Source: Actinomycetes bacterium (GTDB lineage: Bacteria > Actinomycetota > Acidimicrobiia > Acidimicrobiales > RAAP-2). Taken from it: 64,000 bases of DNA. The number at the start of each line of letters is the position of its first letter. Within the stretch, counting starts at the first letter, position 1. A program made the translations under genes and the position numbers. The stretch covers positions 1 through 64,000 of the forward strand of contig JAJXZW010000010.1 in NCBI GenBank assembly GCA_021779855.1, written 5' to 3'. Under the pieces are notes generated by a model, which did not search any database, was not told the origin of the DNA, and saw only the letters and a list, made by a program, of their open reading frames with translations. Shown in pieces: positions 22,873 through 25,683 of the stretch.

Positions 22873-22897
22873 CGATGTGCTATCGTATATCGGCGAT
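22873..22897 (+). promoter_or_regulatory. Promoter/operator of the ars operon
   Basis: TATCGT (22881-22886) fits the -10 pattern 9 nt before ATG 22896. CGAT/ATCG half-sites repeat around it: CGAT 22873-22876, ATCG 22882-22885, and the perfect ATCG-G-CGAT at 22889-22897 over the start codon. An ArsR dimer bound here would block initiation and be released by arsenite. Confidence 0.55.
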
Positions 22898-23294
22898 GAA
22901 CGATTACCTGGTTGAATCCGAGGTGCCGGGGGCGTGCTGCCCGGTTGAGGAGCCGGCCCTGCCCGGCGACGATGACGAGGCGATCGGACTCGTCGCCAAG
23001 GCCCTCGGTCACCCGGTGCGGGTGCGGATCCTGCGGCTCTTGCTGGCCCGCACCACCTGCACCTGCGGGGAGGTCGTCGCCGAGCTGCCTCTCGCTCAGG
23101 CCACGGTCTCCCAGCATCTGAAGGTCCTCAAGGACGCCGGTCTCGTCCAGGGCCGCGTGGACGGCCCTCGTAGTTGCTACTGCGCCAATCCGGCCCGCCT
23201 GGGCGCCTTCGCCGAACTGGTCGGCCAGCTCGCCCATACCGCGTCGCTCCCTCTGACCACCGTCTCATCTCCCGGAAGGATTCCCTCACCATGA
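22896..23294 (+). CDS. arsR: Arsenite-responsive ArsR-family repressor
   Basis: The 132-residue winged-helix repressor has LGHPVRVRILRLLL, then TTCTCGEVVAELPLAQATVSQHLKVLKDAGLVQ. The CTC pair at the start of the DNA-binding region sits where As(III)-binding Cys lie in classical ArsR. Additional Cys pairs occur at the N-terminus (ACCP) and after the wing (SCYC). An alternative in-frame ATG at 22875 overlaps the -10, so ATG 22896 is chosen. The stop overlaps arsD in ATGA. Confidence 0.92.
   Translation: MNDYLVESEVPGACCPVEEPALPGDDDEAIGLVAKALGHPVRVRILRLLLARTTCTCGEVVAELPLAQATVSQHLKVLKDAGLVQGRVDGPRSCYCANPARLGAFAELVGQLAHTASLPLTTVSSPGRIPSP
23274..23280 (+). promoter_or_regulatory. Ribosome binding site of arsD
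   Basis: GGAAGGA lies 10 nt before ATG 23291, inside the end of arsR. It fixes the arsD start at the canonical MTIVEVFDPAMCC. Confidence 0.6.
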
Positions 23295-23935
23295 CCATCG
23301 TTGAAGTGTTCGACCCCGCGATGTGCTGCTCCACGGGCGTGTGCGGCCCGACGGTCGACCCCGGCCTCTCCCGCTTCGCCGCCGACTTGGATTGGCTGGC
23401 CGCCCAGAGCGTGACGGTCATCCGGCACAACCTGGCTCAAGAGCCGGGGGCCTTCGCCGCGCAGCCGCTGGTCACCGGGGCGCTCCAAGCCGAGGGAGAA
23501 GGCGTCCTGCCGGTCGTGATCACCGACGGCACCCTTGTCAGCAAGGGCCGCTATCCGGCGAGAGAGGAGCTGGCGGCATGGGCGGGCCTCGCCGCTCCGG
23601 CGGCCGACCCGTTCGCCTACGGCGCCGTGGTCGACGAGCTCGTGGCGATCGCGGCCGCCATCGCCGCGAACTGCGAACCCTGCCTCGAGCAGCACGTGCG
23701 GGCCGCCCGGCGACTGGGCGTCACCGACGCCGATGTCCGGCGGGCGGTGGCGACCGCGCTCCGCGTGAAGGACACCCCGGCCCGGGCCGTTCGCCGCTAC
23801 GCTGATGAGCTGCTCGCCGGGTCCGCCACCGGAGCCGAGGGGGCCGACGGGGGCGCCTGTTGCGGCCAAGGCGAGCCGGCCCCGGTCGCCATCGGGGAGC
23901 GCCCCGCGCCGGCCGACAGTGGCACGTGCTGCTGA
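23291..23935 (+). CDS. arsD: Arsenic metallochaperone ArsD fused to an AhpD/CMD-like domain
   Basis: Residues 1-~103 match E. coli ArsD closely: VFDPAMCCSTGVCGP with C12, C13 and C18, the three arsenite ligands, then HNLAQEP and KGRYPAREELAAW. ArsD hands As(III) to ArsA. Residues ~108-180 are an extra all-helical domain with DELVAIAAAIAANCEPCLEQH, the AhpD/carboxymuconolactone-decarboxylase motif (E116, C128, C131, H135). The C-terminus returns to ArsD-like vicinal Cys pairs (ACCG and a terminal GTCC). At 214 residues it is nearly twice the usual length (~120). The stop overlaps arsA by one base (TGATG). Confidence 0.9.
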   Translation: MTIVEVFDPAMCCSTGVCGPTVDPGLSRFAADLDWLAAQSVTVIRHNLAQEPGAFAAQPLVTGALQAEGEGVLPVVITDGTLVSKGRYPAREELAAWAGLAAPAADPFAYGAVVDELVAIAAAIAANCEPCLEQHVRAARRLGVTDADVRRAVATALRVKDTPARAVRRYADELLAGSATGAEGADGGACCGQGEPAPVAIGERPAPADSGTCC

Positions 23936-25683
23936 TGGGGCTGCTCACGGAACCCACACGGGTCCTTCTCTTCACCGGCAAGGGCGGAGTCGGGAAGACG
24001 TCGCTGTCGTGCGCCACGGCGCTCGACCTCGCGGCCGAAGGCCGTTCGGTGCTGCTGGTGAGCACCGACCCCGCCTCCAACCTCGACGAGGTGCTCGGCA
24101 CCGCGCTCGGGTCCGAACCCCGACCCGTACGCGGAGCCGTCGGGCTCTGGGCGGCGAACATCGACCCTCAGGCCGCGGCCCGGGCCTATCGGGAACGGGT
24201 GGTCGGCCCCTACCGCCAGGCACTGCCCGCGGTCGCCGTGGCCAGTATCGAAGAGCAGCTCTCCGGAGCGTGCACGGTCGAGATCGCCGCCTTCGACGAG
24301 TTTGCCCGGCTGCTCGGCGACCCCGACGCCACCGCCGGCTACGACCATGTGATCTTCGACACCGCCCCCACCGGTCACACCCTGCGTCTGCTCGCCCTGC
24401 CCGCCGCCTGGACCGGGTTCATCGACACCAACACCACCGGCACCTCATGCCTGGGTCCACTCACCGGTCTCAACGCCCAGCGGGCCACCTACCAGGCCAC
24501 CTTGTCGGCGCTCCGCGATCCGGCGGCCACCACCCTGGTCCTCGTGGCCCGACCGGACCCCGACGCGCTCAGCGAAGCCGGCCGCGCCAGCGCCGAGCTG
24601 GCGGCGCTCGGCGTGCGCAACCAGCAGCTGGTCATCAACGGGGTCTTCACCCCGACGGCTCTCAACGACCCCACCGCGGTGGCCCTCGGCCAGCGGCAGC
24701 GGGACGCCCTCGAAGCCCTCCCCGCGGCACTGAGGGAGCTACCGCGGACCGACCTCCCGCTGCTTTCCGGCCCACCGGTCGGCCTCGACGGGCTGCGCGC
24801 GCTCCTCTCAGGACGACCCGTCACGCCGCGACCGGTCCCCGTCGAGCCGAACGGTCGCGCCGAAGCGACCCTGGCCCGCCTCGTGGACGAGCTGGGAGCG
24901 GCCGGGCGCGGCGTCGTCATGACCGTGGGCAAGGGTGGAGTCGGCAAGACCACCATCGCCAACGCCATCGCCACCGCCCTGGCCCGGGCCGGGCACCGGG
25001 TGCACCTGTCGACCACCGACCCCGCCGCCCGTCGAGACGCCGCCCCAGCCACCGACCTGGGGAACCTCGAGGTCACCCGGATCGACCCAACAGCCGAGAC
25101 GGCCGCCTACACCGCCGAGGTCCTCGCGAGCGCCGGTGCGGGCCTCGACGACGCCGGACGGGCCCTGCTCGAAGAAGACCTGCGCTCCCCCTGCACCGAG
25201 GAGATCGCGGTCTTCCGGGCCTTCGCTCGGACCGTGGCGCTGGCGGCCGACCGGTTCGTGGTGATCGACACCGCCCCAAGCGGTCACACCCTTCTGCTGC
25301 TCGACGCCGCCCAGGCCTACCACCGCGACGTGCAGCGCAATCTCGACGCCGCCCCCGACGAGGTAGCCGAACTGCTGCCGAGCCTGCGTGACCCCGCCTT
25401 CACCAAGGTCGTGGTCGTAACCGTCCCCGAACCGACCCCGGTTCACGAGGCCGCCGACCTGGCCGCCGACCTCCAACGCGCCGGGATCATCCCGTGGGCC
25501 TGGGTGATCAACCAGAGCTTCGCCCTCGTCGGCTCGACCGACCCGGTCCTGGCCGGGCGCGCCGCAGCCGAGCAGGCCATGCTCGACGAAGCGGTCAGCC
25601 TCGCGGCCCGACACGCCCTCGTGGCGTGGATGCCCGACGAACCCCACGGCGCAGACGGCCTGGAGTCACGGCTGGTGGCGTAG
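23935..25683 (+). CDS. arsA: Arsenite-stimulated ATPase ArsA
   Basis: The 582-residue protein has two homologous halves, each with a deviant Walker A (GKGGVGKT at 15-22 and about 332-339) and a DTAP(T/S)GHTL signature. Metalloid-site Cys are present in SGACTVEIAAF, GTSCLGPL and RSPCTEEIAVF, corresponding to C113, C172 and C422 of E. coli ArsA. ArsA normally energises the ArsB or Acr3 pump, but no pump gene follows; an IS256 remnant does. The ATG shares a base with the arsD stop. Duplication of the halves is clear in the sequence. Confidence 0.95.
   Translation: MGLLTEPTRVLLFTGKGGVGKTSLSCATALDLAAEGRSVLLVSTDPASNLDEVLGTALGSEPRPVRGAVGLWAANIDPQAAARAYRERVVGPYRQALPAVAVASIEEQLSGACTVEIAAFDEFARLLGDPDATAGYDHVIFDTAPTGHTLRLLALPAAWTGFIDTNTTGTSCLGPLTGLNAQRATYQATLSALRDPAATTLVLVARPDPDALSEAGRASAELAALGVRNQQLVINGVFTPTALNDPTAVALGQRQRDALEALPAALRELPRTDLPLLSGPPVGLDGLRALLSGRPVTPRPVPVEPNGRAEATLARLVDELGAAGRGVVMTVGKGGVGKTTIANAIATALARAGHRVHLSTTDPAARRDAAPATDLGNLEVTRIDPTAETAAYTAEVLASAGAGLDDAGRALLEEDLRSPCTEEIAVFRAFARTVALAADRFVVIDTAPSGHTLLLLDAAQAYHRDVQRNLDAAPDEVAELLPSLRDPAFTKVVVVTVPEPTPVHEAADLAADLQRAGIIPWAWVINQSFALVGSTDPVLAGRAAAEQAMLDEAVSLAARHALVAWMPDEPHGADGLESRLVA

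Follow-up and report, generated by a model that had tools for sequence, protein, structure and literature searches.

The window, by which we mean the whole stretch of 64,000 nucleotides that was analysed, carries on its forward strand three overlapping genes in the order arsR, arsD-CMD fusion and arsA. The first of them (22896..23294, +) codes for an ArsR-family regulator of 132 amino acids when read from the ATG at 22896, with an alternative in-frame ATG at 22875. It is over the Pfam cut-offs for HTH_20 and HTH_5 and matches NF033788, for which the stretch from 22899 alone scores 72.3 bits against a cut-off of 55. Its cysteines 14/15 and 55/57, numbered from the translation, appear to resemble those of the Corynebacterium-type arsenite sensor. 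The third gene (23935..25683, +) codes for the arsenite pump ATPase ArsA (TIGR04291, 741.3 bits, cut-off 650). The middle gene shares the letters ATGA (23291-23294) with the end of arsR and the letters TGATG (23933-23937) with the start of arsA, which overlaps its stop codon.

This middle gene (23291..23935, +) runs from an ATG at 23291 to a TGA at 23933-23935 and encodes 214 amino acids. The first-pass annotation had described it as an ArsD fused to an AhpD-like carboxymuconolactone decarboxylase (CMD) domain, and its gene coordinates and reading frame are correct, as is its placing of C12, C13, C18, E116, C128, C131 and H135 in the translation. Residues 1-104 (23291..23602, +), which hold the C12/C13/C18 triad, match the ArsD family PF06953 with 131 bits (cut-off 27, E 3.6e-38), and residues 114-171 (23630..23803, +) match the CMD family PF02627 with 37.8 bits (cut-off 23, E 2e-9). 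The NCBIfam models give the same picture for the 214-residue product, with 117.1 bits for the ArsD model NF033727 (cut-off 90) and 33.3 bits for the AhpD core TIGR00778 (cut-off 27.8). Within the CMD domain the AhpD site is present with the spacing E-x11-C-x2-C-x3-H (E116, C128, C131, H135), and these residues presumably correspond to E118, C130, C133 and H137 of Mycobacterium tuberculosis AhpD. The C-terminal tail (23858..23932, +) carries the vicinal cysteine pairs that had been proposed for this end of the protein, at C190-C191 and C213-C214. Since the CMD domain sits between the ArsD core and this cysteine tail, its earlier description as "inserted" is apt.

The AlphaFold2 model, built from a 36-row alignment, has a mean pLDDT of 86 and places helices at 112-125, 129-141 and 146-177; beyond about residue 180 the tail is of low confidence (pLDDT block means 50-57), and with a pTM of 0.61 the relative arrangement of the ArsD and CMD domains is not fixed by the model. 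The N-terminal part superimposes on the ArsD structures 3ktb_B (Z 16.9, rmsd 1.8 over 102 residues), 3mwh_B (Z 16.0, rmsd 1.4 over 95 residues) and 3kgk_B (Z 15.7). Residues 109-178 match RclX, 7y4r_B (Z 10.5, rmsd 1.5 over 70 residues, 30% identity), and residues 106-174 match 3bey_A (Z 9.6, rmsd 3.2 over 68 residues), so that the segment 114-171 both scores as CMD and models as the CMD fold. Thioredoxin structures were also matched in VIA-align at Z 7-8, covering residues 1-103 alone, and are therefore uninformative on the CMD half. The product is thus predicted to combine an ArsD fold and a CMD fold, and both families named by the first-pass annotation are found above the Pfam and NCBIfam cut-offs.

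The host genome contains one ArsD match and one ArsA over the family cut-off, and its Acr3 pump gene lies on a separate contig (G000:C9:117280-118269, 425 bits). Adjoining this acr3 is the gene of a CoA-disulfide-reductase-like FAD enzyme (L282:6846-8222, -), which scores 307 bits for the CoA-disulfide reductase family, under its cut-off of 578.8, and is a candidate electron source for arsenic thiols.

Distribution, conservation and descent of the fusion

The ArsD-CMD architecture occurs in 17 records from Actinomycetota, Planctomycetota and deltaproteobacterial lineages: the window, G020, G023, G193, G257, G300, G386 (L043), G451 (L032), G452 (L033), G453 (L036), L034, L035, L037, G454 (L038), G974, G1085 and G1044, the last of which is interrupted. 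Three of them (L034, L035 and L036) are nearly identical, and L114 comes from the same genome as L043. Because the architecture recurs in 17 records, chance or a single assembly error is excluded as its explanation.

How common the fusion is was gauged in samples of four phyla. In the sample of the host's own phylum (396 genomes) it is found in at least 4 of 25 ArsD-bearing genomes, where G199, whose ArsD runs off the end of its contig, enters the count as ArsD and not as fusion, and in the phylum of G452 (297 genomes) in at least 3 of 11, one of these being interrupted. Among the best 7-10 candidates per genome, none of the 11 ArsD-bearing genomes carries it in the phylum of the planctomycete G453 (343 genomes), and none of the 9 in the phylum of G455 (398 genomes). 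Pooled over the four samples, at least 7 of 56 ArsD-bearing genomes have the fusion (one interrupted) and 49 of 56 showed none; the fusion counts are lower bounds, as no more than 7-10 candidates were scored in each genome. The centre genomes and G090, with its 21-residue match, are left out of the count. Loci were judged unfused by the ranges of their matches together with a scan of the retrieved loci with two profiles. The ArsD-CMD fusion is a minority form of ArsD in these samples, and the idea that it is common finds no support in them. Among 2119 matching plasmid records, none carries the fusion at 80% single-place query coverage. A different joining is seen in a planctomycete (G620), where ArsD is fused to DUF2703 (L155:1039-2142, -; PF10865, 70.5 bits).

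Across the 16 fusions that were aligned, leaving out L180/G1044 because its reading frame no longer follows the family beyond about residue 158, the columns of C12, C13, C18, C213 and C214 hold cysteine in every case. The AhpD site is nearly as constant, with E116 in 15/16, C128 in 15/16, C131 in 14/16 and H135 in 16/16. The redox cysteines are missing in two fusions, both of them in L043/G386 and the second of the CxxC in L179/G1085, where CEPG takes the place of the motif, and these two cases count against a strictly catalytic role. The gene in the window has no internal TGA, and selenocysteine is not encoded there. When the frames of relatives were read through TGA, one TGA was flagged, in G1085, and it puts no selenocysteine in the CMD site; the frame of this gene stops at a TGA after the terminal CC.

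The occasional loss of the CxxC bears on a reading in which the CMD domain would serve chiefly as a scaffold for oligomerisation, gathering ArsD units in a ring, with any chemistry secondary. L043 retains the domain without the motif, a planctomycete operon adds a second CMD gene that likewise has no CxxC (L221:3036-3416), and RclX, the closest solved relative here, has been modelled as a homohexamer (PMC7950407). However, in most fusions E116, C128 and C131 belong to the better conserved CMD positions, and we consider such a mainly structural role quite unlikely.

Substitution rates point to purifying selection on the CMD half broadly like that on the ArsD half. Between L003 and L004 the ArsD part has a dN of 0.181 and a dS of 1.97, the CMD part 0.195 and 1.91 and the tail 0.788 and 1.23, giving dN/dS of about 0.09, about 0.10 and 0.64, and for L037/L038 the corresponding dN and dS are 0.164 and 1.42, 0.18 and 0.96, and 0.26 and 0.88; because dS is near saturation, we use these ratios only for the broad similarity of the two domains. 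In another planctomycete pair, L034/L037, the CMD half evolves faster than the ArsD half (dN 0.314 vs 0.163).

The trees, which have 102 (ArsD) and 62 (CMD) columns, are poorly resolved. A single clade of ArsD halves from 16 fusions is rejected (p-AU 0.0098). A single clade of CMD halves is not rejected (p-AU 0.74 with 15 rows, and 0.73 with 14 rows when L043 is left out), and neither is a clade of the CMD halves with other arsenic-linked CMDs (p-AU 0.40, 30 rows), a grouping that was picked after the tree was seen and that includes the ArsM-CMD fusion L161. The fused CMD halves may share one origin, and two histories are both possible: one CMD lineage could have joined several ArsDs, or an old fusion could have been followed by many losses of its CMD.

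A reading of the fusion as incidental, tolerated but without a special function, would fit a minority form whose CMD cysteines are lost in two of 16 cases and whose copy in G1044 is interrupted. It fits poorly with the recurrence of the architecture across phyla, with the purifying selection on the CMD domain and with the existence of related CMDs that are linked to arsenic genes without any fusion to ArsD, and we regard it as highly improbable.

Arsenic genes around the fusions and their relatives

An arsA gene adjoins the fusion in 14 of the 17 records, the exceptions being G257, G974 and G1044. The ArsA of G974 is located on another contig. At the G1044 locus (L217) the ArsD-CMD frame departs from the family after about residue 158 and is followed by a remnant of the ArsA C-terminus, a pattern for which a deletion is the likely cause. 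In G257 the fusion gene lies beside acr3 and its genome gave no full ArsA match; because the fusion is retained there all the same, loading ArsA is not its sole role. Near this fusion we also observed a decayed fragment similar to the start of ArsA (L213:2264-2827, -). The genes acr3 and arsC are close to the fusion in several records (G020, G023, G300, G451 and G454), and in four planctomycete loci (L034, L037, L220 and L221) an additional CMD gene of its own separates the fusion from arsA.

CMD genes of the same kind are also found unfused in arsenic operons. They adjoin arsD in L067, L072, L095 and L099 (the L100 block is a letter-for-letter repeat of that in L095), with cysteine-rich ends such as GGSCCS in L067 and AAGCGCS in L099. 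They lie beside acr3 in L267 and L275, between arsC and acr3 in L268, and, with a cysteine tail, in the order arsC, CMD, thioredoxin, membrane protein, acr3 in L270. In two genomes of one actinobacterial family (L223 and L224) the order is arsR-arsD-arsA-(small protein)-CMD-acr3. The small proteins between arsA and CMD are encoded at L224:1519-1812 (-) and L223:889-1218 (-), and that of L224, which has a weak ArsD match of 22.7 bits, below the cut-off, is perhaps a second, divergent ArsD.

Another recurrent neighbour of the standalone CMDs is a gene for an ECF-type sigma factor. It lies directly upstream of CMDs in arsenic operons (L067:4326-4907, L265:4969-5754 and other loci), in L265 in the order arsM, ECF sigma, CMD and then a GNAT gene, and the sigma factor products that were read (L067, L099 and L265) have cysteines close to the C-terminus. 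ECF genes also occur near GSU3128-like CMDs. From this arrangement a sensor pair of ECF sigma factor and CMD is possible.

In two further loci the CMD is joined to an arsenite methyltransferase. The products of L269:8090-9136 (-) and L277:8012-9163 (-) score 302.8 and 308.8 bits for the arsenite methyltransferase model NF008823 (cut-off 263) and 196 and 203 bits for the ArsM/AhpD selenoprotein NF041537, under its cut-off of 510; their CxxC carries cysteines, not selenocysteine. The gene in L269 lies between arsC and acr3, and the protein of L277 ends in ArsD-like cysteine pairs. Together with the ArsD-CMD fusions, these two show that a domain of this type has become joined to two distinct proteins that handle arsenite.

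To assess the linkage between CMDs of the fused type and arsenic genes, we scored 80 CMD loci unfused to ArsD, taken from genome searches with flanks up to 1.5 kb. An arsenic gene is found within 1.5 kb of 5/11 CMDs scoring at least 60 bits and of 4/69 below this score (Fisher p 0.0018), where the 60-bit cut was picked after the score list was seen and the profile was built from the fusions and five arsenic-linked CMDs. The four arsenic-linked CMDs below 60 bits score 49-59, and none of the 51 CMDs below 49 bits has an arsenic gene in its flanks. Two of the 80 "standalone" loci are the ArsM-CMD fusions themselves (L161, which is L269, and L138, which is L277), and without them the counts become 4/10 against 3/68 (p 0.0042). 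As the ArsM reference comes partly from the own locus of L188 (L265), L188 counts by construction, and when the ArsM references are left out along with the two fusions, the counts become 3/10 against 2/68 (p 0.014). There is no arsenic gene within 1.5 kb of the high scorers L190, L192, L194, L195 and L245, nor of L193, and L192, L194 and L195 have an ECF sigma gene nearby. With these corrections, a moderate association of fused-type CMDs with arsenic genes stands.

This linkage also bears on whether the CMD domain could act as a thiol peroxidase against the peroxides or oxidised thiols of arsenic stress, with the joining to ArsD only placing it. Members of the family do have protective roles, rclX against HOCl and HOSCN (PMC7950407) and ahpD against allicin (PMC7119367), but the linkage found is to arsenic genes, a weak counterpoint because the references were arsenic-operon genes and peroxide-defence genes would go unseen. 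We think a peroxidase role very unlikely.

Proposed role of the CMD domain

The fusion is most naturally read as having a redox or thiol role around arsenite, with catalytic activity putative. In the form that we favour, and which we hold to be about an even prospect, the protein would be an arsenite chaperone of the ArsD type that contains its own AhpD-type dithiol-disulfide oxidoreductase, acting in cis on the thiols of the chaperone. The ArsD half, with C12, C13 and C18, would take As(III) and hand it to ArsA, as known ArsD does, and binding of the metalloid by ArsD through cysteine sites has been described (PMC6683785). The CMD half, with E116, C128-x2-C131 and H135, would exchange disulfides with cysteines in its own chain or in one next to it, and its partners might be the ArsD triad, the C-terminal cysteine pairs or another protein such as ArsC. 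Such exchange would keep the chaperone reduced and thus competent for arsenite. This reading is favoured by the two matched domains and folds, the conserved AhpD site, the constraint on the CMD half, the neighbouring arsA, the arsenic linkage of related CMDs, the ArsM-CMD fusions and the thioredoxin gene in the L270 operon; the two fusions short of redox cysteines, the 49 of 56 sampled genomes whose ArsD showed no CMD, and G257 with its fusion but no full ArsA match speak against it.

While the fusion, its conservation, its operon and the arsenic-gene neighbours of related CMDs are observed and the folds are predicted, we infer that the CMD domain is redox-active, as well as what its substrate and its electron source would be. 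AhpD stands on the route NADH-Lpd-DlaT-AhpD-AhpC (PMC12028322), and a CMD homologue has disulfide reductase activity that depends on its CxxC (PMC3426412). A lipoyl protein, thioredoxin or an FAD disulfide reductase would be candidate electron donors here. Genes for thioredoxin and thioredoxin reductase lie near arsC and arsD/A on a streptomycete plasmid whose arsD is of the ordinary kind.

The CMD dithiol could also be a site that binds arsenite and hands it over, instead of an electron carrier, passing As(III) from ArsC or small thiols on to the ArsD triad or, where there is no ArsA, to Acr3. The standalone relatives between arsC and acr3 (L268) or beside acr3 (L267 and L275) are placed as such a role would have it, several have cysteine tails of their own (L067, L071, L099, L270, L274 and L275), and in G257, whose genome gave no full arsA match, the fusion is kept beside acr3. 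However, the glutamate and histidine of the AhpD site are conserved along with the cysteines, for which a plain dithiol binder has no obvious need, and some standalone members have no cysteine tail (L224, L267 and L268). A hand-over site of this kind appears unlikely to us.

More broadly, the AhpD-like clade might be a general and so far unrecognised redox component with which bacteria handle arsenic, a dithiol hub that connects the reduction of arsenate by ArsC, the capture of arsenite by ArsD, its methylation by ArsM and its export by Acr3, in which case the ArsD-CMD and ArsM-CMD proteins would combine hub and client in one chain and couple thiol reduction to arsenite hand-over. The ArsM-CMD fusions strengthen this idea and the mended linkage counts weaken it, and we put it forward as a tentative and rather doubtful extension of the cis-acting oxidoreductase that we favour.

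How cells keep the three arsenite-carrying cysteines of ArsD reduced is little addressed in the literature that our search reached, and with a chaperone that brings a dithiol domain of its own, this question could be put to the test in a single protein. The CMD genes of ars operons go by family names as carboxymuconolactone decarboxylase or AhpD, and in the literature searched we found no discussion of them as arsenic genes except for the ArsM/AhpD selenoprotein. The fusion and its arsenic-linked relatives suggest that arsenic detoxification, though well studied, has a redox part that has been overlooked.

Comparison with known systems

The first-pass annotation had not recognised the architecture as a described one, and this holds for the exact pairing: we found no report of an ArsD-CMD fusion in the literature searched, a search that lies mostly outside subscription journals. 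It does not hold for the wider principle, since an AhpD domain on ArsM is already curated (NF041537) and a fusion of ArsD with ArsN has been reported. ArsN is a GNAT-type acetyltransferase and not an AhpD protein, and no GNAT domain is among the three Pfam families that match the window protein at E<=1. The ArsD-ArsN fusion, reported together with ArsC-ArsN (PMC6205960), is similar to the present one in that ArsD is likewise joined to an accessory protein of ars operons.

Compared with the ArsD metallochaperone (PF06953, NF033727; 3mwh and 3kgk), the window protein shares the fold, the C12/C13/C18 triad, the C-terminal vicinal cysteines and the neighbouring arsA, and differs by an AhpD/CMD segment of about 70 residues that separates the ArsD core from the cysteine tail. 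With the AhpD/CMD proteins (PF02627, TIGR00778; RclX 7y4r and M. tuberculosis AhpD) it shares the predicted fold and the E-x11-C-x2-C-x3-H spacing, but here the CMD is joined to a metalloid chaperone in an operon of arsR, fusion and arsA, where no peroxiredoxin gene was noted. It scores 29.5 bits for the GSU3128 model NF041047, below the cut-off of 110.

A further precedent is the ArsM/AhpD selenoprotein NF041537, which together with L269 and L277 likewise carries an AhpD domain on an arsenite-handling protein, and whose AhpD part ranks between first and third among the NCBIfam matches of five arsenic-operon CMDs. An arsenite methyltransferase/AhpD-domain selenoprotein is also listed in a 2026 review of selenoproteomes (PMC13188914), and because it is already catalogued, there is nothing new in AhpD being carried by a protein that handles arsenite. 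The window protein scores 29.6 bits for NF041537, far below the cut-off of 510, with the AhpD part alone matching and no methyltransferase among its Pfam matches. In the selenoprotein the partner is ArsM and the site uses selenocysteine, whereas in the window the partner is ArsD and the site has cysteine only.
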